Of a stretch of 64,000 nt of DNA, positions 14,237 to 54,804 are shown piece by piece. The notes beneath the pieces are model-generated. The model was not told the DNA's origin, did no database searches, and saw only the letters and a list, made by a program, of their open reading frames with translations. The DNA lies in the IMG/VR virus record IMGVR_UViG_3300018422_000003, positions 1-64,000 of that record, one strand, 5' to 3'. A program made the position numbers and the translations under genes. The stretch is from a virus. The number at the start of each line of letters is the position of its first letter. Within the stretch, counting starts at the first letter, position 1.

Positions 14237-14254
14237 GATAATGTCTCTTTGTCC

Positions 14255-14283: not shown

Positions 14284-14293
14284 ACTCGTATAG

Positions 14294-16387: not shown

Positions 16388-16391
16388 TCGT

Positions 16392-16835: not shown

Positions 16836-16863
16836 TACCGCTGTAACTACGCACGTTGACCGA

Positions 16864-16881: not shown

Positions 16882-16910
16882 CGGCCGATTAAAAAGGGGG
16901 ATTCCAAAAA

Positions 16911-18742: not shown

Positions 18743-19066
18743 TTATCCGCCCGCGAAAATATCGACCGTGACGTTCACGACGTACTCAATATCGCTATCG
18801 CTCACGTTGTCCTGACTCACTGGCGTCGTCGATGTGTAGGCCGCCTGGATCGTACCGTTGCCCGCCACCGCCCAGGAGAAGGACGGGCTGTACGATTGCG
18901 GCTGCTGAATCGCTTGGCCCGCCCACTTGGTCCGGTTGCGATGATTGGCCGTCTCGCTAGACTCCGCGCCGATGACATACTGAGCCGTCTTGGCGATCGC
19001 CGCCTCAACGCGTTTGATGAGCGTCGGATCGTTCCGTAATTCGTATTGTTCGAGTAAAGTTGCCAT
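18743..19066 (-). CDS. Last late gene, hypothetical structural protein
   Basis: 107 residues from ATG 19066 (TAATG overlap); the longer frame is a shadow of its neighbour. An N-terminal helix (LLEQYELRNDPTLIKRVEAA) with AKTAQYVIGAESSETANHRN, then WAGQAIQQP and a beta-rich C-terminus with NVTVDIFAGG. The layout suggests a phage structural or tail-associated protein, but no family is sure. Confidence 0.5.
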   Translation of the reverse strand: MATLLEQYELRNDPTLIKRVEAAIAKTAQYVIGAESSETANHRNRTKWAGQAIQQPQSYSPSFSWAVAGNGTIQAAYTSTTPVSQDNVSDSDIEYVVNVTVDIFAGG

Positions 19067-19233
19067 TACTTCAAAACTATAAGGTGTTCCGGCGCGTCGG
19101 CGGCGGCCACGTACAGATTCGGCTCCGGCCGCGGATACGAATTCTCTTCGGCCGCAATCGCCAGAGCAGCGCGCCGCGCAACCCAAAACATTATTAAAAA
19201 TAAAGGTATTAGAGCCGCCGCAATTGAAATCAT
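19066..19233 (-). CDS. Small membrane protein in the late operon
   Basis: 55 residues from ATG 19233, which overlaps the stop of the tail-fibre gene. MISIAAALIPLFLIMFWVAR is a membrane segment, followed by AIAAEENSYPRPEPNLYVAA. It could be a holin or spanin-like partner of the endolysin, or a paralogue of the 18463 protein; neither is proven. It is translated between the fibre gene and the terminal late gene. Confidence 0.5.
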   Translation of the reverse strand: MISIAAALIPLFLIMFWVARRAALAIAAEENSYPRPEPNLYVAAADAPEHLIVLK

Positions 19234-20518: not shown

Positions 20519-20896
20519 ATGAAACAATTCCTTTTAACCGCTCTAATTTCCGCCGCCATCGCGGCCGCCGAAGTCCCGCTGAATCAGGAAGTCGTCCGCG
20601 GCGATTACAAAATCAAGGCCGTGTCCGTCGATCAGCTCCCGCTGTCCAACCCGGAATATACTGGCGGGCCGGGCCTGTTCGTTTACGTCGGAACAACCCG
20701 ATGGCTGCCGGATATCGAAACATTCGACGTCACCGTATCCGTCCGCCTGCGCGATGGCCGCTCCGTGACGCGCACGCAATCCGTGCCCCGCCGCGCTCTT
20801 TTGTGGCAGACCTTCTACTTCAAAGTAGGCGCCGTCGAGACTGTCTCGGCCGTGTCCATTCAGGCCACCGCTTTCCCCACCACGACGGATTTCTAG
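20519..20896 (+). CDS. Exported protein encoded against the late operon (cargo gene)
   Basis: 125 residues with a Sec signal peptide: MKQFLLTALISAAIAAAEV, with likely cleavage after an alanine near residue 17. The mature part is beta-rich (DVTVSVRLRDGRSVTRTQSV and YFKVGAVETVSAVSIQATAF), like a small immunoglobulin-like or FimD-type domain. It is on the plus strand between two tail-fibre genes, which are on the minus strand, and has its own short control region; this is the pattern of a lysogenic conversion gene. Function unknown. Confidence 0.6.
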   Translation: MKQFLLTALISAAIAAAEVPLNQEVVRGDYKIKAVSVDQLPLSNPEYTGGPGLFVYVGTTRWLPDIETFDVTVSVRLRDGRSVTRTQSVPRRALLWQTFYFKVGAVETVSAVSIQATAFPTTTDF

Positions 20897-20907
20897 CCGC
20901 CCGCTCA

Positions 20908-28645: not shown

Positions 28646-31600
28646 TTACCGGGTCAGCGTCGACGGAGAAAGCTGCGCGGCGGTCGTCTCCCGCCGCCCA
28701 TAGTTGGAGCGTGTCGCGATGCTGAGCGAATCGGACACCACCTCCGGGTTGTTTTTCACCGCTTGCACCGCATGGCCGCTCAGCACATCGACCGTCGCAT
28801 CGTAGTTGAGCGTAAGCGATACGCTGCCGTTCGAAGCTCCCGCGCCAGGCGCCACCACGAAAGATCCGAGCGAGGGCAGGGAAGACTGAAGGCCGATGGC
28901 TTTCCCGTTTTCGTAGCTTGCGCCCTGATACAGCCCGCCGGCGGTTTGGACAAGCGTTGCTCCGCGAGCGCCGGACCGCAGGCCGCCGTTCTGCCCGGTC
29001 GCTTCGCCGTACAGTTGGATGAGGTCCCGAACTTGCGGCGATCGCACAGCCATGTCGAGATTCCCGCCGAAGGACTCCTTGGCAATCGCGGCGATCTGCT
29101 TAGACCGCTCCGCGTCGATATCGATCCCGTAAACCTCTTTGACTTTTCGCTTCGCCTTTTCGGTGGCGCTCTTGAACAGGAGCCGTATCGATCCGGCTAC
29201 CGCGCCGATTGCGCCGCCGATCAAAGCTCCCATCGGTCCGCCGAACTTGGCGCCGATCAGCGCTCCGCCTGCGGTCGTTTCGGCGAGCCCGAGCAGGCCG
29301 CCCCGCCGCAGGCCGTCCATTGCCAGCAGGCCTCCGCCCGCGAGCATCGCTCCGCCGGCAACTCCGCCAACACCCGTTGCATTCGCGCCAGCGGTACCGG
29401 GAACAGAGCCGAGCTTATTGCCCAGCACATCGGTACCGCCGCGTCCCAGACCGCCAAGCTTCGTGAGGAACCCCTTCACACCCGCTGCTTGGCCGCTGAG
29501 TAGTCCGCCAAAACTTGAGCCGCCGCCTGCGCCGCCGCCTCCGGCAAACGGAGCCGTGCCGCCCGGGCCCAGCATCCCCGCCGGGTTGCCGCCGCCGAAG
29601 CTGCCCGCCATGCCGAGGCCTCCGAACACTTGGCCCATGATGCCGCCGCCTGCCGACGATCCGCCGCCGGAAGCTCCGCCCATCGAGCCGCCGCTTTGCC
29701 CGGTGACCAGGCGCGCGAACATCGTCGCGAACTGTGAGGCGAGCACGGATTTGAGCGCGCTCAGCAGTACGGTTTTCATCAGCGTGCCGAGATTCAATGT
29801 GCCGGTTACGAGCTGATCGAACACGCCTTCAAAGCTGCGTTTGAAATCGTCGAACATCGACTTGTAATGCGCGCGGACCGCCGTCAGCTCACGCACACGC
29901 GCGCTCTGCTGAATGGCCGCCTTGTCGGTTTCAAGATCGACGCTGATCTGCCGGGCCTTCTCGACGGAGAGCTGCTGCATCGCATCGAGGTTAGCGTCCG
30001 CCTGATGCTGCGAGATGGCGCCTGCCGCGACTTTGGCCTGAAGGACGGTGCGCTCCATTTCCACGCGCCGCCGGGTTTCCTCGTCAATCCGCGCGATCTC
30101 AGCCAGCGCCCGCTTGGTTGCGTACTCTTCTTCGATAGCGGCTCGCCGTTGACTCACGTCTATCTGCTGCGCCACGGTCGTCTGCTGCATTTCCTCAAGC
30201 GCCGCCAGGCGCGCTTGTTTCTCGGTATCGATCGCCTGGATGGAGTAAGCCGACGCGTCATCGAGACGCTGCCGCTCCATGAGCGCCGTCTGCTCCTGAA
30301 TCTCGGCCGCCTCGCCGAGCGCATCCGACGTGCGTGTCTTTCGCGCCTTCTCGGAATCCTTCTGGATCGCGCCCAGCCCTGCGTACGCTTTCTTAGCCAG
30401 ATCCTTATTGAAATCCTCGGTCTCGGTGCGCTGCGCGGACTCTAGATCGTTGAAAGCCTTCGGGCTGCCATCGACGCCCACCTTTCGAGCATCCTCGGCG
30501 CGTAACTGGCGGTACTTCTCATCGATCTTGTTCAGACCTTCCAGCTCGGACAGCATGGCGGCCTCACGCACGCGCCGGGCGCCTTCCTCTACCTGCTGGA
30601 TTTCCTCGGCCGCCTTTTTGCGCGCTGCCAATGCGTCGCTCTGCGCCTTCTTGCCATCAGTCACAGCCTCCCGCATGGCCTCGCTCTGCGCCTTCAACGC
30701 CCGCTCGGCGGCCAGCGATTGCTCGAACACTTGCTTAGCCTTCTTGAATGCGTCCGGGCCGTTCCCAAGCGTCGCCTGCAGGCGGCCAAAGTCTTCTTCG
30801 CGTTTGATCTTCGCGGCCGCAATACGCTCTTCGAGGATCTCTTGGCCCGTTAGGTTTTTGTTGTATTCGACCAGATCTTGATTCGCGCGCCGGATCGCCT
30901 TGTCTTTGTCCGACTCATCAATCGGGCCGACAAAGGATTCCCGCGCCGACTTCTTCTTACCGAACACGTCATCCGGCCCGCCCAGCCTGCTTCTGGCTCC
31001 TGCCAGCGCGCCGCCGGCAGCGTTCTCAGTGATACTGCCGATTGTTTCAATGGTGATCACGAACGGCGCGGACACCATGTTGCGCAGCGCGACCAAATGT
31101 ATCTTGAGCCGGTCAAAATAGCTGTCCACTTTGACGCCGGATTGGACAAGGCCTTCACTCATAACCGCGCCGGAATCGCGAACCATCTTCAGCGCCTCAG
31201 AGAGCCCCATCAGCGTGGGGATTAAATCTTTAGCGCCCCTGCCCATTACCTTGAACGCCGCCTCGGATCGGATGGGCCCGGCCGGAAGCTCCGACAGCCT
31301 CTTTCCAAACCTTTCAAGGAACGGCAACACGCCGATAAAGCGTTCGAGGTCATCCACCGCCGACACGCCCATATCATGCAGCGCCTGCTTGGCCTTTTTG
31401 CCCTCGGCTGAGTTTTCGCTCAAGGCTTGGGTTAACGGGCGCATCGCCGCTTCGAGCGCGCCGAAGCTGCTGCCCATCGAGTCGGCGGCGAGGCTGAACT
31501 CCTGCACCTCCGTGGTGCTGAGCCCGGTGCTCGCAGCAAGGTTGCTGATCTTCTCGGCCGCGTCACCGAAGCTGCTGACGAGCTTGAAAACGCCGACCGC

Positions 31601-32005
31601 CGCGCCAGCCGCCATCAGCCCAACTCCGACCATTGCCACACCGAGCGGTCCCATGCGAAGCAGCAGCGTTTCCGCCGCCTCGCCCGCGACCTGCATCGGA
31701 TTCTGGATCAGGTTTTTCATGTTGCGCGCGAACGTGTCCGCGCCGATGTTGTTTACAGCGTTCGACCAGCTCACGCCGATCCGCTTCCCCAAATCGGTAA
31801 TCGATGAGCTGATACCGCTTACCGTTGTCCGCGCGCGAGTCGCCGCCCGCGTCATCGACTGCGTCATCCGGTCGAAGCTGCCGGAAGCCTGCCCGGTCGA
31901 GCGAGCGGTCGCCGTGCCGAGGCCGAGAACAGTTTTGTTCAGCGAGTCGACGGCTGCTTCGCCGCGCTTGGAATCGACATCGATAACGACGGTCATGCGG
32001 TCCAT
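28646..32005 (-). CDS. Tape measure protein
   Basis: 1119 residues. Long helical domain with MTVVIDVDSKRGEAAVDSLN at the start, hydrophobic glycine-rich segments near 115-140 (GPLGVAMVGVGLMAAGAAVG) and again near 880-920, long coiled coils, and a glycine-rich zone (about 750-880). Tape measure proteins set tail length and are ejected to form a channel. At roughly 0.15 nm per residue the tail would be about 165 nm long, which suits a siphovirus. It is placed behind the chaperone genes as usual. Confidence 0.9.
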   Translation of the reverse strand: MDRMTVVIDVDSKRGEAAVDSLNKTVLGLGTATARSTGQASGSFDRMTQSMTRAATRARTTVSGISSSITDLGKRIGVSWSNAVNNIGADTFARNMKNLIQNPMQVAGEAAETLLLRMGPLGVAMVGVGLMAAGAAVGVFKLVSSFGDAAEKISNLAASTGLSTTEVQEFSLAADSMGSSFGALEAAMRPLTQALSENSAEGKKAKQALHDMGVSAVDDLERFIGVLPFLERFGKRLSELPAGPIRSEAAFKVMGRGAKDLIPTLMGLSEALKMVRDSGAVMSEGLVQSGVKVDSYFDRLKIHLVALRNMVSAPFVITIETIGSITENAAGGALAGARSRLGGPDDVFGKKKSARESFVGPIDESDKDKAIRRANQDLVEYNKNLTGQEILEERIAAAKIKREEDFGRLQATLGNGPDAFKKAKQVFEQSLAAERALKAQSEAMREAVTDGKKAQSDALAARKKAAEEIQQVEEGARRVREAAMLSELEGLNKIDEKYRQLRAEDARKVGVDGSPKAFNDLESAQRTETEDFNKDLAKKAYAGLGAIQKDSEKARKTRTSDALGEAAEIQEQTALMERQRLDDASAYSIQAIDTEKQARLAALEEMQQTTVAQQIDVSQRRAAIEEEYATKRALAEIARIDEETRRRVEMERTVLQAKVAAGAISQHQADANLDAMQQLSVEKARQISVDLETDKAAIQQSARVRELTAVRAHYKSMFDDFKRSFEGVFDQLVTGTLNLGTLMKTVLLSALKSVLASQFATMFARLVTGQSGGSMGGASGGGSSAGGGIMGQVFGGLGMAGSFGGGNPAGMLGPGGTAPFAGGGGAGGGSSFGGLLSGQAAGVKGFLTKLGGLGRGGTDVLGNKLGSVPGTAGANATGVGGVAGGAMLAGGGLLAMDGLRRGGLLGLAETTAGGALIGAKFGGPMGALIGGAIGAVAGSIRLLFKSATEKAKRKVKEVYGIDIDAERSKQIAAIAKESFGGNLDMAVRSPQVRDLIQLYGEATGQNGGLRSGARGATLVQTAGGLYQGASYENGKAIGLQSSLPSLGSFVVAPGAGASNGSVSLTLNYDATVDVLSGHAVQAVKNNPEVVSDSLSIATRSNYGRRETTAAQLSPSTLTR

Positions 32006-33527: not shown

Positions 33528-34589
33528 TTAAGCCTCTCCCGCGAGCGTCTCGATCTCGTTGGTGACCAGCACCTCGATCGGGCCGTCCGTGGCGTCGTAG
33601 AGTACGGTGCAATCGACCGCTACGGTCTGGACGTTATCGGCGTTTTCCTGACGCACCGAAGCGAAGCGGATGCGCGGGAAGTTGATTTCGAGCTTGTGAT
33701 AGGTCGAGCCCGCAATGAGCGGTCCGACCACAGTCAGCGCCGCCGTGCCTTCGGTCTGCGCCTTTAGCTTGGTCAGCTCAGCCGAATCGGCTTTGATGCG
33801 CGCCACAAAGCGAAGCGTTACCGCCCGCTTGCCGTGTTCCATGCGGCCTCGGATCGATCCCGATCCGCCGTCGCCGGTGGTCTGGAATCCGGAGCCCGGA
33901 TAGTGTCCCGAATCGGTACGGACGTTGTTCTTGATGCTGATCTCAACGGACTCGATGGTTTTGGTCCCGACGTAATCCACGCCGTTTACCGTCAGAGTCA
34001 TACCCGCCGAAGGCAGCCGGTGCTCGGCCGTGATGGCGGGCATCGTGATTCCGGAGGGTGTCGTGAACTTGCCGGTGCCGATGATATTAGCGACGATCTT
34101 CGACGCGGCGCGCGTCGGTCCGCTGGTGAGGCTGATCGTTACATCCTCAACTACGCAGCCGATCAGCGAGCGGTCGACCGGGGAGCCGCCCGAGCGGTTG
34201 ATCTGCTCGACCACGGTGAACGGGACCATATCGATCTCGTCCGTGATCGGGTCGCTGAAGCCCATCGTGTGAACGAAGGAGCCCGAACCCGCTCCGGCGG
34301 CGGACTCGGATTTGCCGAGCGCGTACGCCAGCAGAATTCCGGCCGCTTCCGAGGTCAGATATTTATCGAGCTGACCGCTTACGTCCCAGGAGGTAACAAA
34401 GCTATCCTCCGCGAACTCGTGGCCTTTGCCCAGCTCGTCGGTGTCATCTTCGGTGGAGAGCGCCGGGTCGGCGAGGGACGCGTTCAACTTCTTGAAGCTG
34501 ATCAAATCGCCCGCCGCGGATGCCGTCAGAAGCGCTGCCTGCGCAACTCTGCCGATCGCTACCCGCTGCTCGAATGTTTGCATTGCCAT
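33528..34589 (-). CDS. Major tail protein
   Basis: 353 residues from ATG 34589 with GGAAGG upstream; an earlier in-frame start is less likely. The sequence has the typical tail-tube beta pattern: VTSWDVSGQLDKYLTSEAAG, IVANIIGTGKFTTPSGITMP, and IESVEISIKNNVRTDSG. Many such proteins assemble as hexameric rings. It stands between the connector genes and the tail chaperones, where siphoviruses keep it. A C-terminal extension (about 300-353) has a further strand and AVDCTVLYDA. Confidence 0.8.
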   Translation of the reverse strand: MAMQTFEQRVAIGRVAQAALLTASAAGDLISFKKLNASLADPALSTEDDTDELGKGHEFAEDSFVTSWDVSGQLDKYLTSEAAGILLAYALGKSESAAGAGSGSFVHTMGFSDPITDEIDMVPFTVVEQINRSGGSPVDRSLIGCVVEDVTISLTSGPTRAASKIVANIIGTGKFTTPSGITMPAITAEHRLPSAGMTLTVNGVDYVGTKTIESVEISIKNNVRTDSGHYPGSGFQTTGDGGSGSIRGRMEHGKRAVTLRFVARIKADSAELTKLKAQTEGTAALTVVGPLIAGSTYHKLEINFPRIRFASVRQENADNVQTVAVDCTVLYDATDGPIEVLVTNEIETLAGEA

Positions 34590-34609
34590 GAGAAAAAAAC
34601 CTTCCTTTT

Positions 34610-35071
34610 TTACGCGCCTGCTTCTATCAGCGGCGGCAGCGTCATTTGCCACATTTCGGTCCCCTCGGCATCGAGCAGGCGGCCGAACGTCGGAACGCCC
34701 GCCATAACGAGGTCGGGATGAATATCAGCAGTGAGAAATGGCAGCCCACCGCTGAGGTTTTCGGGTACGCCGTCGAGGATGGCCGCAACGGCGAGGTGAT
34801 ACTGCTGCGGAATATCGAGGCGCAGCAGAATCGAAACTTGATGTCCGAGCCGGGTGACGTGGCCGAGCTGAGCCGACGCGATGCCGTCCCAGACGACCAT
34901 CACGGCCGGGGTTGGCATGATGTTGATCGACTCGGATAAATCGCGGGCCTGCTCATCGGCGGCTTGCGCATAGATGCCGGTCTCGGCATCCCCGCCCACC
35001 AGCTCGACCAGCTCGGGGATCGAGCGCAGCGCCTCGACCACGGCGCCGATTACCTCGGCGACGGGTGTCAT
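34610..35071 (-). CDS. Tail terminator-like protein
   Basis: 153 residues from ATG 35071 (ATGA overlap). Compact alpha/beta fold suggested by MTPVAEVIGAVVEALRSIPE, then VMVVWDGIASAQLG and HQVSILLRLDIPQQY; this pattern of helix then GYxxxxLxxDI is common in tail completion/terminator proteins. Position between connector and major tail protein agrees. Confident as a neck/tail protein, less so on the exact subunit. Confidence 0.6.
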   Translation of the reverse strand: MTPVAEVIGAVVEALRSIPELVELVGGDAETGIYAQAADEQARDLSESINIMPTPAVMVVWDGIASAQLGHVTRLGHQVSILLRLDIPQQYHLAVAAILDGVPENLSGGLPFLTADIHPDLVMAGVPTFGRLLDAEGTEMWQMTLPPLIEAGA

Positions 35072-36025: not shown

Positions 36026-37168
36026 TTATCCGAGGACGCGGATTGCTTTTCTGGGGTCGAGAGTCTTGACTCCAAATAAAGAATCAATTCTCACATAGGT
36101 TCTTAGGTCTTTCGCCTCGTACCAGACGCTTGCGCGAATGGTGATGTTGCCGATGCTTGCCGTGTACACGCTGGCGCCGGGCGCATTCGGTACCTTCAGC
36201 GGACGGGTGACGAGCGCGAAGGCGTTCTTGGCAAACGCGATGTTGACGTCGTGGCTGGCGATGATCGTCACGGACTGGGTGCTGACCACAGCCGCGCGAA
36301 GCGCCGGGAAGATGGGCAGCGTTGCGGCCGAGGCGGAGTGAGCGGTGTCGGCGGTGACGTTGTAGCTGCACACGCCGAGGACGGCGCCGTGATCGAGGGT
36401 GATGATATCGCCCTTTTTCGCGTTCGCTGTCATGCCGGTAACCGCCAGCGTTCCGGCGACGATCGAGCCCGCGTTGAGCACCGACGCGGCTTGGTTGCTG
36501 GAGCAGGTTACCGTTCCGGCAATGCCCGTTACGTGGCGCGCCAGGCGGTTGCTGTTTGTGTAGCTCATCCCGAACTTGCGTGTGAGCTGACCTTCGGTCT
36601 GCTGCGCCGGCGAGCCGGACACGTAGTCCTGATAGAACACTTGGTTGTATTTGTTGTGGGCCTTCGGTCCGAGCACGACGGAGCGATCCGTCTCGGCAAC
36701 ATTCAGGGTGTTGAATTTCTCCTGGATGTCCGTGCCGAGGGCGCTGATCGTGGCCGGGGTCGTTCCGGCGATGCCGGTGATATTGCCAACGTCGGAGTAC
36801 AGGCCGACGATTGCATCTTCATACGCGCCGCCGAGAGCTTCCGCTGCCGGTTTCGCGAAATCCGACTGCAAGTCGCGGATCGTCATCGACGCTTCTTTGT
36901 CGCCGATCTCATAGACGACCTGCTTCCACTGGTCGAGGCGGACCTCGACGTTGTCGGCAGTCGGCTTTACGCTGACGAAGCTGTCGGGGTCAACGTTTGT
37001 CGCCACCATGGTGTGCGGCATGCGCGTGTTGACGACATCGCCAACGGACTGAACCTGCGCATCGAAATCACGATGCACCAGGCCTGCGAACTTCAAAGTC
37101 GGAAAGAGCTGCATGAGCGTTTCTTGCGCCCATAGCTCGGGTTTGTATACGTCTAAAAGTGCTGCCAC
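36026..37168 (-). CDS. Major capsid protein (P22 coat-like)
   Basis: 380 residues. The start VYKPELWAQETLMQLFPTLK, then LVHRDFDAQVQSVGDVVNTR and QWKQVVYEIGDKEASM, is typical of the P22-coat-type (HK97 fold) proteins; a beta-rich insertion lies in the middle (GTLAVTGMTANAKKGDIITL, positions about 235-255), as in P22 gp5. The end IRASVWYEAKDLRTYVRIDS is the conserved C-terminal strand. It follows the scaffold gene in transcription order, as expected. Confidence 0.88.
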   Translation of the reverse strand: MAALLDVYKPELWAQETLMQLFPTLKFAGLVHRDFDAQVQSVGDVVNTRMPHTMVATNVDPDSFVSVKPTADNVEVRLDQWKQVVYEIGDKEASMTIRDLQSDFAKPAAEALGGAYEDAIVGLYSDVGNITGIAGTTPATISALGTDIQEKFNTLNVAETDRSVVLGPKAHNKYNQVFYQDYVSGSPAQQTEGQLTRKFGMSYTNSNRLARHVTGIAGTVTCSSNQAASVLNAGSIVAGTLAVTGMTANAKKGDIITLDHGAVLGVCSYNVTADTAHSASAATLPIFPALRAAVVSTQSVTIIASHDVNIAFAKNAFALVTRPLKVPNAPGASVYTASIGNITIRASVWYEAKDLRTYVRIDSLFGVKTLDPRKAIRVLG

Positions 37169-37250: not shown

Positions 37251-38039
37251 TTACTGGCCCGGTTTCGGACCGCGAACGTACTCCCCGCTCGTGAACTTGG
37301 CGTGATTGGCGGACACGAAATTCATGTCCTGCCACTGCTCGTAGGGGATTTCTCTCCCTACTGCGCCTGCGCCGCCGCCCGATCCTGCGCCGCCGCGAGG
37401 CGTGCCTGAGCCGGGAGCCGCCGTAGCTTTAAAAAGCTCCGGATTTGCCTTGAGGAAGTCGGTCTTTACGTAAGCCTCCAGCGGGATTTCCGCCTCGGCT
37501 CCGTACTGATCCTTGCTCTTCACGACAAACGCGCCGGCATCGTTTTTCACAACCCGGTCCGCGAGATGGATGTAGTCTCGATCCGCGTTGAGGGCTTGCT
37601 CTTTGCTCAGCGCCGCGACGACGGCGGATTTGCGCTCGGCTTTCGAGTTGTTCTCGATTGCCGTCAGCTTCTCCGCGCGCTCATCGGTGAGCTGCTTTTC
37701 GAGGGCCTTCAATCGCTTCATTGCGGGATGGTCGTCGCCGAGCTGATCGTCCTTCTTCCCGCCTTTGGTATCTGGCGGGGCGGCCGAACGCGCCCGGAAC
37801 TTCCCTTCGTCGTCCTTTTCGAGCAGGCCTACTTCGACCAGCTCATCAAGGGTCAACGCTTTGCGCTGCGAGATCTGCGTGACGGTATCGTTCAACCGTC
37901 GGATCTGCGCTGCGGTCCCGTTAAAAACATCTGCGCTAACAAACTTCGACGGATCGAAGGTTGAAGTATCAGGCTTGCCATCGCTGGCCGGGATGCCCGT
38001 TCCCGTGCCCGTGTTACCGGGTTGGTTTGTGTCGCTCAT
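37251..38039 (-). CDS. Capsid scaffold protein
   Basis: 262 residues from ATG 38039; a longer frame from the hairpin region is less likely. A disordered start (NQPGNTGTGTGIPASDGKPD) leads to long helices (AAQIRRLNDTVTQISQRKAL, MKRLKALEKQLTDERAEKLT) and a glycine-rich tail with RGGAGSGGGAGAVG. Such proteins guide coat assembly and leave or are cleaved. No Shine-Dalgarno is obvious; the hairpin at 38064-38104 lies upstream. Confidence 0.7.
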   Translation of the reverse strand: MSDTNQPGNTGTGTGIPASDGKPDTSTFDPSKFVSADVFNGTAAQIRRLNDTVTQISQRKALTLDELVEVGLLEKDDEGKFRARSAAPPDTKGGKKDDQLGDDHPAMKRLKALEKQLTDERAEKLTAIENNSKAERKSAVVAALSKEQALNADRDYIHLADRVVKNDAGAFVVKSKDQYGAEAEIPLEAYVKTDFLKANPELFKATAAPGSGTPRGGAGSGGGAGAVGREIPYEQWQDMNFVSANHAKFTSGEYVRGPKPGQ

Positions 38040-38063
38040 GCGGAAAAGGTTTTGCACGAAGCT

Positions 38064-38104
38064 GCCCGGCCGGTGGGTCCAAGGAAAACCCACCCGCGCC
38101 GGGC
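38064..38104. promoter_or_regulatory. Strong hairpin before the scaffold gene
   Basis: GCCCGGC (38064-38070) pairs with GCCGGGC (38098-38104), and GTGGGT (38073-38078) with ACCCAC (38088-38093), leaving a short loop. It falls between the exported-protein gene and the scaffold start, and could process or stabilise late RNA or terminate it partly. Confidence 0.5.
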
Positions 38105-38146: not shown

Positions 38147-41100
38147 TTATCGGAGGGCCGGAAGGTACAGCGCCGCGCGGTTGGCCGGGCAGGCGACCGT
38201 CACGAAATACGCCGTGTCCTCGATCAGATCCGCGATCGATACCGAGCGGTTGCGGCTGCCGCCGCCGTCCGATATGCGTGTCCCGCTGCCCGGATCGGAC
38301 GACGTCGAATACCAGACTTGGCAGGCCGCCGCGCCAGGCATGTCGTAACGAATGGTCGCCGCCGTTGGGGCCTGCGCCGAAATGCGGTGATTGAAAGCCA
38401 CGGCAAAGGCGGTATCGAGCGCGAGGAAATCGACGCCCGCATTCCGCTTGTCGGTAGCCGCCGCGAGAGCCGGAGCGCCGGGAGCGAGCCGGAAGTTGGC
38501 CGGGTCAACGGCAGAGCCGAGGCAGACCGATCCGCACTGCATCAGCGCCGCCGCGATCCGGGCGTTGGCCGTTGTGCCGCCGCTCAGACAGGTAAACGAC
38601 CCTGCCGGAAAGCCCGTCATCGCCGTATTGCAGTCCGATTGAGTCCAGGTATAGGTGCTGCTGGTGGACGCGTAATGCGCGTCGCTGTCGGTGTTTTTGA
38701 CAGTCGGGATTACCACGTTTCCCGCCGTGGTCGCGTTCTTGTTTGCGCCGGCGAACTTGACGTATTGCCCGGTGAGCGAAGGCGTTGAGCCAAAGGCCTG
38801 CCAAGCGTTCTGGCCCACGATGCCGCCGCCGTTGTCGGTCGAGGCGGTGAAGAAATTATTGGTTACGCTCAGGCCTTCCCCGGTGCCATAGATGAAGCTC
38901 AGCCATTCGCCTTGCTTGCCCCGGAAATCAATCGTCGTATTGTGATCGATCACGACATCCTCGGTTGTGAGGTTGAGCGCAACGGTATAGCCGCACAGCC
39001 CGCCGCCGACGTCAGCGGTCGGACTCGCGTCCCAGACCCGGTTGTCGAGCGCGTACAGCAGGTTGTTTCTGAAGACAATCCGTTTGGTGGGGCCCGCGCC
39101 AACACCGTCCGCATACGTGTCCTGCCCGTTGACATGAAAGACGCTGGCGCCGTTGCGGAAGATGTTATTCCGCACCATCACGTCAACGCCTTGGTTGCCG
39201 GTGTTGGTGGACGTTCCGCGCGGGCTGACCGCGATGAAAGGTCCACACGGTGTCCAGTCCGCCCAATTGCCGTCGTATAGGTTGCCTTCGATCACGGCGC
39301 GCTGAATCTGCTTGAACTCGGTTGCGTGCCGCTTGGGATAGTAGCGGCCGTTCGATGTGCTCGATCCGGTCCGGTAGGCCGGGTCGGAGTAAAAGGTGTT
39401 GCCGCGTATGGTGATGTCGGTAACGGGCGTTGCGCTGCTGCCCTCCTGCGCGAAGATGCTAATTCCGACAAGGTTTTCAAAGCGGTTGTTCTGGAACTTG
39501 ACGTAAGAGGAATTCGTGAAATCGATGCCCGTCGTCGTGTGATGGTAATAGTTGTGGAGGGAGCCTTGAATAATGCCGTTGCGTACCGCGAGCCATGCAT
39601 TGAAGTCCTTCACGAGACTATCGACGATGGCGCTATTGGTATTAGTTCCGGTGATTACCATTCCCGTAAGGAACCGCGTCGGCCATCCGCTGGAGCGGAC
39701 CACGGAGCGGTCGAGAATCATGCGGCTGGTGTTGGCCGCAAAGGTCAGCAGGGGCGGTTCCATGCCGGGATCGAAGGTGACCGCGCCGCCGCTGACGTAT
39801 GCGCCATTTCCGGCCGCGTCGTCGAGCTGCAGCGTATTCGGTCCGAGGACGGTGAAGGTATGCGCGCCGTTGGCCGCCGTGTTCCCGAGCACGCCATCGA
39901 TTGAGATCGCCTCGCGGAATCGGGCCTCCCCGCAATCGGACGCGCACGTCTGAGCGTAGTTGAGCCCGGTCTGCATCCAGCGATTCGTGAGCAGCAGTCC
40001 CGAGGTACTGGTGGCGAGGATGCCGTCGAGGCCGGTGATCGGCGTATTCCGAAACTCCATCTGTGAGCGCCGCGATCCGTCCGCGATCGCACCCCAACTG
40101 CCGGCGAAGGTGAAGGTCGCCTCCACCCGCGGTGAGGTCACGGTCGCGGTAAACGATGTGATCTCCATCCACGGTTCAACGGGCAGGCCGTGCGGAGTCT
40201 CGGTCGTGATGACGATGGGCGTTGCGTTGGTCGCGCTGGTGATCCGGTGCGCGAGCGCCTGTGTCGCTTTGCCGCCGCCCGCATAGCAGGAGCTTGTGGC
40301 GCAGGCGATTGAGGAATTCTGATAGCTGAACTCCGTCGTATTGTGTACAGCGATGGGCGCGGTCAGATTCGGCCCTCGGCCGGGGAATCCGGTCACGCCG
40401 CTTACGGTCACCATTTGGTGCGTAATGAAGCCGTGCGGCGCGCTGGTGGTCATGCGTCCCGCGTCGGTTACCGCCGTGATCGTGAACTGGCGCGGCGTGT
40501 GATTGGCGACCGATTCCGACGTGAAATCGATCCCGACGAAGCGCCAGCCTGCGGTCGTATTCGTGTTGATAAAAACGCTGTGCGCGTTGCCGTCATTGAA
40601 GTTGTGCGGCCGGATGAGCTGCGCCATATTCGGCAGATCGGCCTCGGTCACGCGCGTGCCTTCGGGCGGCAGCAGAGCATGCGCGCTGGTTCTCACCACG
40701 CAAGTGCCCGCCCCGCTCTTGGCCGGGAGCGTAACCCGCTGCGCGCAGGACAGCCCGGCTGTAATGGTGACGGTATGATTCAGCGCCGTATCGGCCGCGC
40801 CGCAGGCCGTGAGCTGCGTCTGTAGCTGGCCGCATGAGGTAACAGCGAAGTCCGATCCGTTGATGGTGGGATAAGCCGTGTTGACTTCCGCCGGCGCGGT
40901 CGGCGGTACCGGGTGCACTTCCGGCTGAGCCTCCAAGGTGACGGTGGCAACGTCATCCGAGCACGTATACCCGGTTCCTGGCGCGTCGCACTCCCAGGTG
41001 GATGCATTCGAGACTGGCTTGAAGTAAACGGTCGAGCCAGGAACGGCGCTGAAGGCGCACCAGCGCCGCAACTGGCTATAGGCGACGGATGTGATTGTCG

Positions 41101-41275
41101 CGGTCGAACTTCCCAGCGCCGATGTGGCGCCATAGGCGCAGTAGGAGGCTCCGCCGGTGGCGGTGATCTCCCACTTGGCATATACCGTTCCGTGCGAGAC
41201 AGAGACTACAAGATTTGAGATCGTCTGAGCGAACGATACCGTCGCCAGCAGCAGCGTGAGAAGTAAGAGTTTCAT
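38147..41275 (-). CDS. Large exported parallel-beta-helix-like protein
   Basis: 1042 residues from ATG 41275, with a Sec signal peptide (MKLLLLTLLLATVSFAQT). A cysteine-rich beta part (about 20-380) precedes a right-handed beta-helix-like middle (about 500-830) with repeated short strands such as DITIRGNTFYSDP, VMVRNNIFRNGASVFHV and VVIDHNTTIDFRG. The C-terminus has a fibronectin-like phrase (ATIRYDMPGAAACQVWYSTS). Such helices often bind or cut surface polysaccharide. It lies in the virion gene module but is predicted to be exported through the membrane. Confidence 0.72.
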   Translation of the reverse strand: MKLLLLTLLLATVSFAQTISNLVVSVSHGTVYAKWEITATGGASYCAYGATSALGSSTATITSVAYSQLRRWCAFSAVPGSTVYFKPVSNASTWECDAPGTGYTCSDDVATVTLEAQPEVHPVPPTAPAEVNTAYPTINGSDFAVTSCGQLQTQLTACGAADTALNHTVTITAGLSCAQRVTLPAKSGAGTCVVRTSAHALLPPEGTRVTEADLPNMAQLIRPHNFNDGNAHSVFINTNTTAGWRFVGIDFTSESVANHTPRQFTITAVTDAGRMTTSAPHGFITHQMVTVSGVTGFPGRGPNLTAPIAVHNTTEFSYQNSSIACATSSCYAGGGKATQALAHRITSATNATPIVITTETPHGLPVEPWMEITSFTATVTSPRVEATFTFAGSWGAIADGSRRSQMEFRNTPITGLDGILATSTSGLLLTNRWMQTGLNYAQTCASDCGEARFREAISIDGVLGNTAANGAHTFTVLGPNTLQLDDAAGNGAYVSGGAVTFDPGMEPPLLTFAANTSRMILDRSVVRSSGWPTRFLTGMVITGTNTNSAIVDSLVKDFNAWLAVRNGIIQGSLHNYYHHTTTGIDFTNSSYVKFQNNRFENLVGISIFAQEGSSATPVTDITIRGNTFYSDPAYRTGSSTSNGRYYPKRHATEFKQIQRAVIEGNLYDGNWADWTPCGPFIAVSPRGTSTNTGNQGVDVMVRNNIFRNGASVFHVNGQDTYADGVGAGPTKRIVFRNNLLYALDNRVWDASPTADVGGGLCGYTVALNLTTEDVVIDHNTTIDFRGKQGEWLSFIYGTGEGLSVTNNFFTASTDNGGGIVGQNAWQAFGSTPSLTGQYVKFAGANKNATTAGNVVIPTVKNTDSDAHYASTSSTYTWTQSDCNTAMTGFPAGSFTCLSGGTTANARIAAALMQCGSVCLGSAVDPANFRLAPGAPALAAATDKRNAGVDFLALDTAFAVAFNHRISAQAPTAATIRYDMPGAAACQVWYSTSSDPGSGTRISDGGGSRNRSVSIADLIEDTAYFVTVACPANRAALYLPALR

Positions 41276-41282
41276 GGATTGG

Positions 41283-42572
41283 TTAGCGATACGAGATGCC
41301 CGTAGCCTCAAAAGCAAAGCGCAGCAGCTTCATCGTGTGGCTGCCCGCATCGCAGGAATAGGTCTGCCATAAGAAGTACATGGAGCCGGTTGGGAGCGAG
41401 GACAACGGGACAGGCGTCGACCACGATCCGCCGTTGACGCGGTAGCGCGCGTTGATTGTGCCCGCGACCGACGATTCAAATTCGACCGTCATGATGTTGC
41501 TTAGAGCAAAGGCCGTCGCGGTTGCCGTCAGCACGGGAGTACCGGCCGTGCGGACTTCCCACTGCCATGCGGTGTCGGAGGCGGTCTCGGTGCAGGCGTT
41601 GTTGCTGATCGCTCGCAGGCCGATAAAGTTAGCGGGCGTTGTGGTGAGCACGTCCGAAAATCCGACGCGAAAGCCGTACTGCACCGTGAAGAATTCGTCG
41701 GTGCCAAAGATGAACTGAGCCCGCCAGCCTGCATGCGTGCTGAGATCTTTGATGGATACCCGCGAGGCTGAGAGCGATAGCGAAGCGCGTCCGTTGATGC
41801 CCGAGGCGGCGAGCGATACGCCTGTGCCTTCGGCCCATGCGCCGGTCGGTGTGGTGCCGTCCGATCCGCCGGCAGTCCCGCTGACCGAGGTCTTCCATCC
41901 GAGTTGACCGAAGCCGTTCACGCCGGCCGTATTCGAGCCGCCCGGGAATTCGTCAACCAGCCGAAGAATACTCGCGTCGAACGGATCAAATTCGGCCGGT
42001 GGCGTCGGTCCTTGCGCTTCCCAGCCTGCCGCCGTGCAGATATAGAGTTTTTGTCCCGCTGAGCCGCTGCGGTATACATACACGTCGTCGTACTCGCTCG
42101 ATTCATTGCAAGCGCCTGCGGCCGGGGCCGAAGTGCCGGATGGCGGCTTGAATGCGCCTGTGTAATCGTTGCGCGCGGACCATGCGTTCGGCTGGGCGAG
42201 CCAGCCTACATATCCGTCAACGAGAGAAATTTTCGGAAGGGTGGATCCGGTTGCATAGACGACTGAGATCGCGCCGTTGTCGCCGCCGATAAATTTAACC
42301 TGCTTCCAGGCGCCGTCGATGCAGCGGTATTCGTCGGTGCCGTCGAGGATGTCCTCGGTACGGACCGCTTCTCCGGTCGCGCAGGAGCCGGGGAGCGCTG
42401 AGCTGAGCACGACCTTCCACGGAATCGAGGCGGTAGAGTTGGCGGCGCTGAAGACGGTCGTGATGTTTGAGACGTCCGTGCCCTCGCCGCCGCCGGTGGA
42501 CGGGGGAGGGAAGGACTGAGCCGCCGCGCTGAGCGCGAGCAGAAAGAGAGAGAGGGTCTGTTTAGAATTCAT
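41283..42572 (-). CDS. Exported protein with C-terminal jelly-roll-like domain
   Basis: 429 residues. Signal peptide SLFLLALSAAAQS is followed by PPPSTGGGEG. Residues about 210-429 look like a ConA-like jelly-roll: RAQFIFGTDEFFTVQYGFRV, then TAWQWEVRTAGTPVLTATAT and VEFESSVAGTINARYRVNGG. The centre has further beta-strands with SGTSAPAAGACN. It begins 11 bp before the end of the next upstream gene and 8 bp before the beta-helix gene. A receptor- or polysaccharide-binding role at the host surface is inferred. Confidence 0.65.
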   Translation of the reverse strand: MNSKQTLSLFLLALSAAAQSFPPPSTGGGEGTDVSNITTVFSAANSTASIPWKVVLSSALPGSCATGEAVRTEDILDGTDEYRCIDGAWKQVKFIGGDNGAISVVYATGSTLPKISLVDGYVGWLAQPNAWSARNDYTGAFKPPSGTSAPAAGACNESSEYDDVYVYRSGSAGQKLYICTAAGWEAQGPTPPAEFDPFDASILRLVDEFPGGSNTAGVNGFGQLGWKTSVSGTAGGSDGTTPTGAWAEGTGVSLAASGINGRASLSLSASRVSIKDLSTHAGWRAQFIFGTDEFFTVQYGFRVGFSDVLTTTPANFIGLRAISNNACTETASDTAWQWEVRTAGTPVLTATATAFALSNIMTVEFESSVAGTINARYRVNGGSWSTPVPLSSLPTGSMYFLWQTYSCDAGSHTMKLLRFAFEATGISYR

Positions 42573-42993
42573 CGGTCCAGCCCTTCACGCGCGCCACCAG
42601 CGTGCCGCTCGATGAGCTGACATAGAGGCCGTCTTTGAATTCCCCGCCGCCGTCCGCCATCGGGACAACGTAGAAGCTGTTCGCCGCGATCGTTACGTCC
42701 TTGGCCAGCCCGTAGGAAGCGCCGTCGCCGTCCTGGATCGTGAACGTGGCGGCCGAAGCGGTCAGGTTGGAAATGATAAACGTCTTGACGTGGATCGTCT
42801 TCACGGCGAGGGCCGTGAGCGATACAGGCATCAGAACTTTAGCCTGGATGTTGCGCCCGCTGAAGGGAGCTTGATTGGGCGGCGCGTTGCGGATGTCAGC
42901 CTGCGCGCTCGCCGGAAGAATCGTGAGGGTCAGCAGCGCCACAAGCGTTGCGGCCCGGGAAAGGGTCTGCACGCCGGGTATTTCGCGCGTCAC
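42562..42993 (-). CDS. Small exported protein, first of three
   Basis: 143 residues. A signal peptide with a basic start and LVALLTLTILPASAQA (cut near residue 32) precedes a beta-sandwich-like domain: QAKVLMPVSLTALAVKTIHV, TFIISNLTASAATFTIQDGD and NSFYVVPMADGGGEFKDGLY. It could be a decoration or adhesion module. It stands 11 bp behind the head-tail protein gene at 43005 and overlaps the next exported-protein gene. Confidence 0.62.
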   Translation of the reverse strand: MTREIPGVQTLSRAATLVALLTLTILPASAQADIRNAPPNQAPFSGRNIQAKVLMPVSLTALAVKTIHVKTFIISNLTASAATFTIQDGDGASYGLAKDVTIAANSFYVVPMADGGGEFKDGLYVSSSSGTLVARVKGWTDEF

Positions 42994-44727: not shown

Positions 44728-47700
44728 TTAGTACCTTGAGCCGGCCTGTATGACTTTTTCAATCGGACGGCCATCGGGGAACTTCGTGATTCCGTGCTTG
44801 CGGAATACGGCGAGGACCTCTTGGCGCTCATGCTCGTCCAGCGTTTTGACGTGATCGATTTCGTGCAGCAGAGACAGCGTGTTTTTCAAAATGGTCTCAT
44901 TACCGGAATGCAGCGAGTACTTCTTAAATTCAGAGATCGTAGAACCGCGCTCTGTCGACACGGTGTCGCCGGTCACGCGGCCGTACTTATCGCCGTCGTA
45001 GCTGATCGCGTCCATGCGGCGCAGGTTGCGTACTTTGAAATAAATCTGCGACTTCGTGTTAGCGGCTTTTTGAATACGAGTGAAGACGTAGCTGCCGCCG
45101 CCGCTTTTAATATCGGCGGTCGCTGAGCCTGCGCCCTTGCGTGTGATTCCGGTGCGGAGCTTTTCGGTGGTCGATACCATCGAGGCATTGTTGGGCAGAG
45201 CCACGTCGAAAAATTCGTTTAGCTTGGCGGACGCATTGCCGAACTTGATGTCATGAACGAGACGGTACTCGCCCAGTTGTTCGTTGAGCTGTTGCTCCGT
45301 TAGATCAAAACGGTACTGATGACGGTTGCCTGCCTGCTCGCCGTGTTTATCCCATCGCTGCTCGTACTGACCCTCGGGCTTATATTCGGGCAGCTTGGTC
45401 ACATCCGGAACGCCGAGGCGGCGCGACCAATACGCGCGCATTTCAACCACGCGCGCCGCGTCGGACGTGTTCTCCGTCTTGTGTTTAGCCACCAGCTCCT
45501 TCCATTCGGCGGACGTGTGCGCATTGGCGACGTACGTCGCCTTTTGTAAATACAGCAGCTCCTCGTCCGTCTTCGTCGCCGCCTTCGTGTTCAGCCCGGT
45601 CTCCGATAGCCTTTTGAGCGCGTGCTCGACCTGCTTGGGATCGACCGCGCCGGGGACCATTACCTCCAGCGTTCCGTGGAACGTGAATGACTTCGTGTTT
45701 GTGTCCCCCTTGCCCTCGCTGTACGGAATGTAGCGAACGCGAACGCCATCCTTCCAGGTGACGTTATACTGCTGCAGCCCGGCGCCCGCGCCTGTATACA
45801 CCGAGCTGAGCGACACCTGCTCCTCAGCGACGATTATGCTGCCGTTTTTGATTTCCTTGGAATCAACCCGAGCCCCGGTTTGCTTGACGGTGAACTGCTT
45901 TTCTCCCGTTTGTATGGCGCCTTTATTCGCGGCTTGATCCTCCAGCTTCTTCAGCCGGGCGCGCTCTTTCGTGACCGCGCTCGTCCAGTCTGTGAATTCC
46001 TTTTTGAGCTGTTTCACCTGCTCGATCGACATCTGCCCGCCCCATCCAAAGGCCCACGCCTTGGAATCATCGGGCGTGCTCAGCGACACGTTACCGACTC
46101 CGTTCACAAGATTGCTGAAGATCTGCTTGGACACGGGCGCGTGCGGGATTGGGACCAGCTCCACGTCGGACTTCGATGATGCCTTGTTGCTGTCGTCGTC
46201 ATCGTCATCATTTTTAGCCACACCCGGATCGAGGCCGAGGCCGCGCAGGAAATCGTCCTGCGCTTCAAGCCGCAGCTTCATCCGCAGCATTGTGCGGTCG
46301 CCCGCTTTGGTTTTTTCCTGCCACACGAGAACGTTCTGATCCTCGATCTGATCCTTATCGATAGCCAGCGTTTTGCCTTGCCAGCCGTTAGCTTTGGCCG
46401 TCGCGACATGCGCCAGGTTGCGCTCGCCAAGGTGAGCCAGATCGCCTGTCTCCGCCTCTTCCTCGGGCGCCGGATCATCCAGCACAACGCCCTTTTTCTT
46501 GGCGCGCTGTGCCCGCGTGTAAGCGTTGCGGGCGAGCCGCTTGGCCTCCGCCTCATCCTCGACGTTCAATACCGTAGCGGCCGCCGTTTGCGCGGCGGCG
46601 GCAGCTACATCGGCCGCCTTCTGAGCTGACGAGGCGGCCTCGGTAACATCCGATTTCTCGTCCTCGTCGATTTCCTTCTGCAGCGATTTCAGCTCCGATA
46701 AAGGCAGCCCATCGAGGAGGCCCTGCTCGTATTCGGACAAACCGTTGTAGCCGAGCGCCTCATGCTTTTTAACGATTTCTTTCTGCTCGTGTTTTTCCTG
46801 CTCGGTCGGCGCGAGATGCGGCTGCTTCTTCTGAGCGCTCGTCGGGGTGAGCGCGACCGTATCCGCGTCGTTAAGGAATGTGCTTTTGAAATCCGCGCCC
46901 GGGGTAACGAGGTGCGTCAGCGTGCCGTCCGCTTTGCTCCAGACGTAACCGCCCTTGACGCTGTCCCATGTCGCGGTCCAATTCGTATTCTTGTTTTGAT
47001 ACTTCGCCGCGAGGCCGGGCGGAGGTTCATCGGCGGCCTTTTTCGTCGCCGCCTTCGGAGGCTTCGGCGCCGCCGGCATGATTGGCGTCTGCGCGACCAT
47101 GGCTTTGTTCTGCGAGGCCTTGGTCGTGCCGACGACCGACTTCTTCATCTGATCGGGAGACGTGACGGTATCGGTCGCCAGCGTGCCGTCAGGCTTGACC
47201 CAGACGTAACCGCCTTTGCCGCCGTCCCACTTTGCCGACCATTCGCTGTACTGGTTCTTGTAGACGGCCGCCATTCCGGGCGGTACCGGAGCCGCGTTGG
47301 CTTCGGCGGCGGCCTTTGCCTCGGCCGCCAGCTTTTCGGCGGCAGCGAGCTTGGCTTCGTATTCCGCTTTTTCGGCTGCCGCCTTTACTTTGGCCGCAGC
47401 TTCCTCGTTAGCTTTTTGGAGCGCCAGCGCATCCGCCGCTTTCTGATTGGCGGCGGCAATCGCATCCGCATGTGCCTTTTTCGCCGCCGCCATCTTGGCC
47501 GGATCGAAGCTGAAATGCGGGTCGCTGGTCAGCTTGCGATAGTACGTTTCGAAATCCGAGCGCAGGCTGTTCTTGCGCGCGATCGCCGCCGCCTTGAATT
47601 TGGCTGCGGCAGCCGGGCCGCCCGGATGATTCGCCGCGTAGCCTTCGACCGCCTTCAGGTAATCCGCGTCGCTGATCTTTTCAGCGGCCTCGATCGCGGG

Positions 47701-49242
47701 CAGGGAATCGGCCGGATTGAATTGGACCTTGCCCGCCTTGATGGCCTTGCCAAGCGTGTTGTAGAGCGGCTCCTGCTCACCGAAGCTTTTATTCGGGTGA
47801 TAGTCGACGCTGAGCTGATCGTTGCCGATGTGCTTGTACGCCTGCGCTTTGTCGATCCCGTAGATTGCGCCCGATTTGGTCCGCAGGAACTGGCCGGGGT
47901 GGCCGTCATGATTGCTGATCAGCCAATCGAGAACGTGCTCGCGCTGGATCTGCTGAATCTCAAACGCCGACAACGATTCCATCGGTACGGGCTTGTTCTG
48001 CCCACCGTTCGTGAAGTCGATTTTCTTTGCAAGATCCGGAACGAATTTCTGAGCGGATCCGAACTTCCCGCCGAGCGTCATCGTGTGAACTTCGACGGCG
48101 GTTTGAGGGTTGACCAGGCGCGCTACATTAGCCGCCGCCTCCTCCGCGTACGGAATGATTTTCTTTGACGCATCGACGGGTTTGAACAGCCAGTCGTTGC
48201 CCGCCGGATCGGTCCAGATCTCCTTGGCGTGAGCGCCGCCGAGGCCGGGGTTAGCGGACTTGAGCGCCCATGGTTTCGGCGCAGGCGGCTTGGGCGCTTC
48301 CGGAGGCGCGGGTGGTACGTAAGTGCCGGGTCGCTTCTCAAAGCCCAACGCTTCGCGCGTGGCGGCCATAGCGACCGCCTGCGGCATCTTCCCGCTGGCG
48401 CCGGTATCGGCAGCCTTCGGCGCGGGCATGTCCGCTGGCCACGGCATCCAGACGTGACGGCAATTCCAGCCGCCGCCGTAGCGCAGCGCCGGGAGCAATG
48501 GCGTTTTTGAAAGCTGCTTCAGCTCCGCATCCATCGCGTGAATATCTTTGAGCGTGTACAGCTTGTCGATTTTCGCGAGGCAGAACGGGCGGTTCTTAAT
48601 GTCCTTCGGCCCGCGATAGGTGAAGTTTTTGATTCCGGCGGTTTGCCAGATCTTCATCGACACGGTCCGGTCGTAAACAACCAGCGCCGTGTCCGCGTAC
48701 GTAGCCGCGTAGTTCTTCAGCTTGAGGTCGAGCGTTGCCGCAATCTTGTCGATGAGCGGCGCCCGCGCGGTACCGAGCAGCGCGTTCTGGATGACTGCCT
48801 GCCCGACCGATTTCACGGCCTCTGTGCCGAGGCCGGACAGGTAATCGTAATCGATATTCTTGAGCTGCTTTAGGGCGTTGCGATCGAGCGGCGCGAGCCG
48901 TTCGTCGGGAAGCTTCAGCGCCTTCACGGTGGCGATCGCATTCTCGACCGATTGATCGAAGCTGCCGGTCAGCTCTTTTACCAGCTCGGGATAGCCTTCG
49001 CTGTTGAGCTGCTTTTGTAGCTCAGCCTGGAGCTGCAGCAGCGATTGCGCCTGCGCCGCGACCTTCGGTGTCAGCTCGCCGGCGGAAAGGATTTCGATGA
49101 CGCGCGAGCGCATGGCAGCGACCGTCTTCTTCAACCCGGCTTCGAACACGGCGAGCGCCTTGGCCTGCGAGGTAATCGAGGCGTTGGAGATTTCGGTAAC
49201 CGCGCCAAGCTGGCGCTCCGGTTGATTGTTATAGCGCGGCAT
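44728..49242 (-). CDS. Giant MuF-type head protein with kinase-like and ART-like parts
   Basis: 1504 residues. Residues about 20-270 are the SPP1-gp7/MuF head-morphogenesis domain (TAGIKNFTYRGPKDIKNRPF, then GGGWNCRHVWMPW). Residues about 325-545 resemble PI3/4-kinase or HipA-like folds: WLFKP (lysine 354), EEAAANVARLV, GSAQKFVPD, a catalytic-type NHDGHPGQFLR (aspartate 446) and YGIDKAQA (aspartate 464). Coiled coils follow (590-650), then two copies of a WxAxWD-GGYVW unit (655-690 and 740-775). The last 200 residues contain YRLVHD (arginine 1327), VSTTEK and GNETILK (glutamate 1449), reminiscent of the R-S-E triad of ADP-ribosyltransferases. Polymorphic toxin-type MuF proteins are known; activity here is inferred. 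Confidence 0.75.
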   Translation of the reverse strand: MPRYNNQPERQLGAVTEISNASITSQAKALAVFEAGLKKTVAAMRSRVIEILSAGELTPKVAAQAQSLLQLQAELQKQLNSEGYPELVKELTGSFDQSVENAIATVKALKLPDERLAPLDRNALKQLKNIDYDYLSGLGTEAVKSVGQAVIQNALLGTARAPLIDKIAATLDLKLKNYAATYADTALVVYDRTVSMKIWQTAGIKNFTYRGPKDIKNRPFCLAKIDKLYTLKDIHAMDAELKQLSKTPLLPALRYGGGWNCRHVWMPWPADMPAPKAADTGASGKMPQAVAMAATREALGFEKRPGTYVPPAPPEAPKPPAPKPWALKSANPGLGGAHAKEIWTDPAGNDWLFKPVDASKKIIPYAEEAAANVARLVNPQTAVEVHTMTLGGKFGSAQKFVPDLAKKIDFTNGGQNKPVPMESLSAFEIQQIQREHVLDWLISNHDGHPGQFLRTKSGAIYGIDKAQAYKHIGNDQLSVDYHPNKSFGEQEPLYNTLGKAIKAGKVQFNPADSLPAIEAAEKISDADYLKAVEGYAANHPGGPAAAAKFKAAAIARKNSLRSDFETYYRKLTSDPHFSFDPAKMAAAKKAHADAIAAANQKAADALALQKANEEAAAKVKAAAEKAEYEAKLAAAEKLAAEAKAAAEANAAPVPPGMAAVYKNQYSEWSAKWDGGKGGYVWVKPDGTLATDTVTSPDQMKKSVVGTTKASQNKAMVAQTPIMPAAPKPPKAATKKAADEPPPGLAAKYQNKNTNWTATWDSVKGGYVWSKADGTLTHLVTPGADFKSTFLNDADTVALTPTSAQKKQPHLAPTEQEKHEQKEIVKKHEALGYNGLSEYEQGLLDGLPLSELKSLQKEIDEDEKSDVTEAASSAQKAADVAAAAAQTAAATVLNVEDEAEAKRLARNAYTRAQRAKKKGVVLDDPAPEEEAETGDLAHLGERNLAHVATAKANGWQGKTLAIDKDQIEDQNVLVWQEKTKAGDRTMLRMKLRLEAQDDFLRGLGLDPGVAKNDDDDDDSNKASSKSDVELVPIPHAPVSKQIFSNLVNGVGNVSLSTPDDSKAWAFGWGGQMSIEQVKQLKKEFTDWTSAVTKERARLKKLEDQAANKGAIQTGEKQFTVKQTGARVDSKEIKNGSIIVAEEQVSLSSVYTGAGAGLQQYNVTWKDGVRVRYIPYSEGKGDTNTKSFTFHGTLEVMVPGAVDPKQVEHALKRLSETGLNTKAATKTDEELLYLQKATYVANAHTSAEWKELVAKHKTENTSDAARVVEMRAYWSRRLGVPDVTKLPEYKPEGQYEQRWDKHGEQAGNRHQYRFDLTEQQLNEQLGEYRLVHDIKFGNASAKLNEFFDVALPNNASMVSTTEKLRTGITRKGAGSATADIKSGGGSYVFTRIQKAANTKSQIYFKVRNLRRMDAISYDGDKYGRVTGDTVSTERGSTISEFKKYSLHSGNETILKNTLSLLHEIDHVKTLDEHERQEVLAVFRKHGITKFPDGRPIEKVIQAGSRY

Positions 49243-54767: not shown

Positions 54768-54804
54768 ACGGCCCGCTTCTCACGAGGCGGGCCGTTTTGT
54801 TTTT
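54768..54804. terminator. Rho-independent terminator near the terminase end
   Basis: ACGGCCCGC (54768-54776) pairs with GCGGGCCGT (54787-54795), followed by TTTGTTTTT. On the plus strand it ends the 54261-54668 unit; its right flank overlaps the stop of the terminase gene by a few bases. Confidence 0.8.

Follow-up and report, generated by a model that had tools for sequence, protein, structure and literature searches.

Three consecutive signal-peptide genes in a variable slot of a siphophage head module: a possible cassette of exported fibre-like proteins

Three consecutive genes in the head module of an uncultured virus begin with what appear to be Sec signal peptides, which raises the question of whether their products are virion parts at all and, if not, what exported proteins would do. 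The window, i.e. the whole stretch of 64 000 nucleotides that was analysed, comprises bases 1-64000 of a 70,089-base record that is possibly incomplete. Its genome type is that of a siphophage, and the structural genes listed here, from TerL to the tape measure, are all located on the minus strand.

54803-56134, minus strand: TerL
49641-51161, minus strand: portal
44728-49242, minus strand: MuF-like protein, 1504 aa
43005-43658, minus strand: conserved head-module gene, upstream border of the slot, 37-55% identical in relatives
37251-38093, minus strand: head scaffolding protein (phrog_206, E 6e-6), downstream border of the slot
36026-37168, minus strand: major P22-like coat protein (phrog_283, E 4e-54; PF11651), used as a query for relatives
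33528-34652, minus strand: tail tube
28646-32005, minus strand: tape measure

The 43005-43658 gene has no solid family match, though it is conserved in relatives, and its earlier label of 'head-tail gene' is therefore based on position. Between this gene and the scaffold gene lies a slot of 4.9 kb, which is filled by three intact open reading frames, as the sequence-only reading had described.

42562..42993, minus strand: predicted exported protein 1, 143 aa; signal peptide and one small domain without Cys
41283..42572, minus strand: predicted exported protein 2, 429 aa with 6 Cys; signal peptide and a C-terminal part rich in Gly, Ser and Thr
38147..41275, minus strand: predicted exported protein 3, 1042 aa counted from the ATG, with 20 Cys; signal peptide and two E1_FCCH stretches

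Protein 1 starts at a GTG codon, with an alternative in-frame GTG at 42972, while the open reading frame of protein 3 spans 38147-41317 with its ATG start at 41275. The cassette is packed tightly on the same strand as the structural genes: the genes for proteins 1 and 2 overlap by 11 nt and only 7 bp separate the stop of protein 2 from the start of protein 3. The GC contents at the three codon positions (0.55-0.59, 0.49-0.57 and 0.74-0.80) resemble those of the remaining phage genes, and the cassette genes are therefore neither spurious nor visibly recent imports.

The earlier claim that all three proteins carry Sec signals was borne out as well. Each has a classical Sec/SPI N-terminus that consists of a positive n-region, a hydrophobic core and small residues at -3 and -1, followed by Gln at +1 (the slash marks the cleavage site).

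42904..42993, minus strand: predicted signal peptide of protein 1, ...TLTILPASA/QAD, rule-based
42519..42572, minus strand: predicted signal peptide of protein 2, MNSKQTLSLFLLALSAAA/QSF (end ...LSAAA/Q)
41228..41275, minus strand: predicted signal peptide of protein 3, MKLLLLTLLLATVSFA/QTI (end ...TVSFA/Q)

Read from the internal GTG, the N-terminus of protein 1 is M(GTG)QTLSRAATLVALLTLTILPASA/QAD; the first GTG of the open reading frame adds seven residues. None of the three proteins contains a stretch more hydrophobic than its signal, and their N-terminal hydrophobicity ranks among the highest within the structural module. Comparable N-terminal hydrophobicity is seen for the 32009 gene product, but there no cleavage site is recognised. 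The signals were called with a home-made Sec/SPI rule (score of at least 4.5) rather than with SignalP, and this rule is generic rather than host-specific. It flags none of 123 core-gene homologues, 3 of 69 shadow open reading frames (including one that is probably a real gene) and 2 of 119 annotated genes from three isolated phages, both shorter than 75 aa and neither a head-tail gene. Because these control rates are low, three signals in a row are not a matter of chance, and the predicted export of all three proteins is well supported. A lipobox was looked for in the three signals and is absent, since the +1 residue is Gln in all of them.

These N-termini bear on a more conventional explanation, namely that the three are ordinary virion proteins such as head fibres or tail spikes, in which a hydrophobic N-terminus merely resembles a signal peptide. 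The location beside the scaffold and coat protein genes would suit such proteins, protein 1 weakly matches phrog_16194 'tail protein' (E 0.015), and both FCCH and beta-helix domains, to which protein 3 shows matches (see below), are compatible with virion proteins. That three genes in succession show textbook n-, h- and c-regions and a cleavage site is nevertheless difficult to reconcile with it, as are the absence of any flagged core homologue and of the cassette itself from the same slot in relatives, and we consider this explanation improbable.

A fourth exported protein is probably encoded elsewhere in the window, as judged from its predicted N-terminus.

20519..20896, plus strand: fourth exported-protein candidate, 125 aa, strong signal MKQFLLTALISAAIAAA/EVP, between tail-region genes

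At this locus, the codon-position GC favours the plus strand over the antisense open reading frame 20543-20911.

Relatives of the phage were found via coat-protein and MuF alignments. Five of them share the gene order MuF, 43005, scaffold and coat protein: L002, L009, L010 (with L023), L011 (the L022 record) and L012 (the L024 record). The 43005 homologue and the scaffold gene are direct neighbours in L002 (164 bp apart), L009 (39 bp) and L012 (29 bp), with no gene in the slot. In L011 the slot measures about 0.9 kb and holds one small antisense open reading frame, and in L010/L023 it extends over 2.2 kb with two antisense open reading frames of 269 and 265 aa.

L010, 6859-7668 and 8024-9130, minus strand: antisense slot genes
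L023, 1222-2031 and 2387-3184, minus strand: antisense slot genes

The cassette is thus missing at the same position in all five phages, and the genes that flank the slot are conserved while its content varies. Since the content differs among relatives, we regard the site as a variable cargo slot and the three genes as accessory; their absence from this site in the five related phages also supports the view that they do not encode core virion parts. Proteins 2 and 3 have no homologue in 17 related records, with protein 1 compared with the relatives by local blastp and phmmer only. Searches of viral contigs and phages returned no usable homologue of any of the three proteins, plasmid searches with proteins 2 and 3 only were equally empty and a PDB search gave nothing usable. 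This absence of homologues again fits accessory genes. The small signal-less protein L010:4407-4799 was considered as a counterpart of protein 1 and rejected, as the two show no similarity. In Xanthomonas phage Elanor an antisense gene block sits immediately upstream of the coat-protein gene. A prophage search of genome contigs with the coat-protein and MuF alignments found none and hence gave no host. An acidobacterial host (Acidobacteriota) is a guess, prompted by signals that end in 'AQ' and by the general character of the beta-helix protein, and we do not count it as evidence.

For the mature proteins, the sequence-only reading had proposed beta-sandwich, jelly-roll and beta-helix-like domains. 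The beta-helix corresponds to a match below threshold, while the beta-sandwich and the jelly-roll remain guesses without a solid family match.

40259..40450, minus strand: E1_FCCH (PF16190) stretch 1, protein 3
39776..39907, minus strand: E1_FCCH (PF16190) stretch 2, protein 3
39386..39676, minus strand: Beta_helix (PF13229) stretch, protein 3, sub-threshold (E 0.0025, 17.9 versus 25.9 bits)

The two E1_FCCH matches reach 33.5 bits against a cut-off of 29.5. FCCH was considered as a marker of the phage family and rejected, none of 13 related records carrying it. A right-handed beta-helix region in protein 3 is possible. Protein 2 has no family match in phrog, Pfam or NCBIfam profile searches; it contains two similar-looking Cys-pair stretches, C64/C84 and C155/C179. 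AlphaFold modelling, which had been proposed as a check of the beta-helix, was run without homologues and gave pLDDT values of 33 for protein 3 and 36 for protein 2, neither of which is usable as a model.

The beta-helix is a usual fold of phage depolymerases, and the hint of such a fold in protein 3 would suit a secreted polysaccharide lyase or hydrolase that clears the exopolysaccharide of the host or its neighbours so that virions can spread. The match lies below the cut-off, however, and for the three proteins no catalytic family was found: there is no enzyme-family, NCBIfam or PDB sequence match, and no active site was identified. An enzyme would also leave the other two proteins unexplained, and its probability is accordingly low. 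Beta-helix tail spikes and depolymerases may be compared with protein 3. A beta-helix, which is possible in protein 3, would be the feature in common, but those proteins are anchored to the virion via their N-terminus and carry no signal peptide, whereas protein 3 begins with a signal peptide and has no enzyme-family match.

Proteins 3 and 2 contain 20 (1.9%) and 6 (1.4%) Cys residues, respectively, compared with between zero and two in the tape measure, the MuF protein, the scaffold and the coat protein. Such a high content fits oxidised, exported proteins, although it is not specific for export because Cys also makes up 1.3% of the tail-tip protein 23719.

That virion parts are not normally exported was a premise of the sequence-only reading, but distant relatives make it less straightforward: there, signals occur on proteins with signal-less homologues that are annotated, in isolated phages, as virion or tail-fibre proteins. 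Predicted exported fibre-like proteins are found in the structural modules of L014, L015, L016, L019 (two in a row) and L002. Their genes follow the tail tube in L014-L016 and the coat protein in L019, and precede the 43005 homologue in L002, where the protein (7657-7947, directly upstream of that homologue) is small, weakly tail-fibre-like and different from those of the cassette. As in the cassette, the signals are carried by beta-rich or fibre-like proteins of structural modules, but there is no sequence similarity to its three proteins; by their N-termini, these relatives display the theme of exported virion-type proteins independently of the window.

The individual cases are the following. 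L015:10070-10573 (plus strand) encodes a signal-bearing protein, the mature part of which shares 52% identity over 145 residues with L014:18358-18813 (plus strand). The latter lacks a signal, and a stop codon lies in frame a short way upstream of it; both genes are located directly after tail-tube genes. L014 also encodes a longer signal-bearing protein (18888-20369) adjoining the signal-less one, while L015 has the signal-bearing form only. The short C-terminal domain of L014:18888-20369 is 53-55% identical to proteins of the Flavobacterium phages elemoA and pippi8-1 that are annotated as tail fibre and structural protein and that lack signals. L016:15434-16735 combines a signal with a C-terminal tail-protein domain (phrog_17312, E 8e-8). 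In L019, two consecutive signal-bearing genes (14212-16539 and 16547-17350, plus strand) are flanked by head genes on one side and tail genes on the other. For the second there is a match to phrog_8198 (E 2e-20) as well as homology (30% over 198 residues) to cyanophage S-SCSM1 gp031, which is annotated as 'virion protein' and has no signal. Mass spectrometry was performed on S-SCSM1 virions (PMC9602691), and from the annotation label we infer that gp031 was among the proteins detected.

The side-by-side occurrence of signal-less and signal-bearing forms in L014 fits the idea of decoys. The presence in L015 of only the form with a signal agrees just as well with exported virion parts. The cassette might encode virion fibre or decoration proteins that are routed through the periplasm for folding and disulfide formation and dock onto virions at lysis. 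Its place in the head module and the 20 and 6 Cys residues of proteins 3 and 2 would be accounted for in this way, and domains of the signal-bearing proteins in L014, L015 and L019 recur in proteins that are annotated as tail-fibre, structural or virion proteins or that are signal-less sisters, one of them from an isolated phage with a virion proteome. The literature searched nevertheless gave no precedent for structural proteins of tailed phages that are assembled after export, and the slot is often empty in the phage family, so the cassette is not needed for assembly. We regard such a route as unlikely, though somewhat less so than ordinary virion proteins. A wider proposition, that some environmental tailed phages export virion-type fibre proteins via Sec, with disulfides formed in the periplasm and the proteins then attached to virions at lysis or left as soluble decoys, appears slightly less likely again; for tailed phages, the literature searched gave no description of such a route, by which assembly or decoy formation would take place outside the cytoplasm.

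The reading that we prefer, tentatively and at somewhat less than even probability, is an accessory cassette of late-expressed, exported fibre- or adhesin-like proteins whose targets would be the host envelope or the debris of lysis. The products probably act outside the host cytoplasm and are made late, rather than serving as ordinary capsid parts, because they bear export signals and because the slot is empty or unrelated in related phages. The cassette would be read together with the late structural genes, and the three proteins would be exported by Sec and cut by signal peptidase I into the periplasm. The mature proteins would be soluble and without a lipid anchor, with proteins 2 and 3 forming disulfides in the periplasm, and they may leave the cell via host secretion or at lysis. 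Their most likely role would be a fibre- or adhesin-like binding of host-surface glycans, which protein 3 possibly also cuts. On the infected cell, on neighbouring cells and on lysis debris, receptors would thereby be masked or trimmed, such that progeny are not lost and rivals are unable to adsorb. The signal-bearing proteins of other phages that have virion or tail-fibre homologues would equally fit virion parts.

No sigma-70-like promoter was recognised in the 37-45 kb region with a generic consensus that may not be that of the host, and no integrase or resolvase was found in the 70-kb record, which may be incomplete. Both results suit genes that are expressed late in the lytic cycle rather than in a lysogen. 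Accessory genes for exported proteins are typically found as morons, and lysogenic-conversion genes that alter the surface or fitness of the lysogen would be of this type, but these same two results, together with the packing of the cassette into the structural gene run, make such genes very improbable here.

Exported superinfection-exclusion proteins include T5 Llp and phi80/N15 Cor. Others are TP-J34 Ltp and Cutibacterium phage Aquarius gp41 (PMC11480721). Like the cassette proteins, all of these are phage-encoded, carry a signal peptide and act at the envelope against superinfection or progeny loss, an action that we infer for the cassette. They are, however, small and mostly lipid- or membrane-anchored products of single genes, whereas the cassette comprises three genes in a head module for predicted soluble proteins without a lipobox. 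Neither a lipobox Cys at +1 nor a retained membrane anchor is present, and instead of one small protein (below about 200 aa) there is a run of 143, 429 and 1042 aa. Exported genes also occur within tail modules, as for Lambda Lom, an outer-membrane protein made in lysogens, and similar proteins. Lom shares with the cassette the arrangement of a signal-bearing accessory gene among structural genes, but no such family match is seen for the cassette and its location is the head module. On the features tested, the cassette is not a member of the known families compared, but its mode of action may resemble that of an exported factor for exclusion or receptor masking.

Exported phage proteins have so far been known mainly as small anchored exclusion factors, while the cassette is a three-gene set for predicted soluble, exported proteins, two of them large, in a head-module cargo slot. 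Together with the pairs with and without signal in L014 and L015, it suggests that the export of fibre-like proteins may be more frequent among uncultured phages than is recognised. It also raises the testable question of whether such proteins serve as decoys or as exclusion factors, act as released enzymes, or are parts of the virion that are made outside the cytoplasm.

Two further observations concern neighbouring genes and relatives. Small signal-bearing proteins with possible transmembrane segments are encoded in structural or lysis regions at about 5327-5725 of L010 (plus strand) and at L026:12209-12613 (minus strand), and possibly form one family. In the MuF-like protein (44728-49242), a stretch (...NHDGHPGQFLR...GIDKAQA...) weakly matches TIGR03843 (SCO1664 family, E 0.013), which we take to be a PI3/4-kinase-like family. 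The same stretch is conserved in L002, L008 and L009, and the MuF-like protein possibly contains a virion-borne kinase-like domain.
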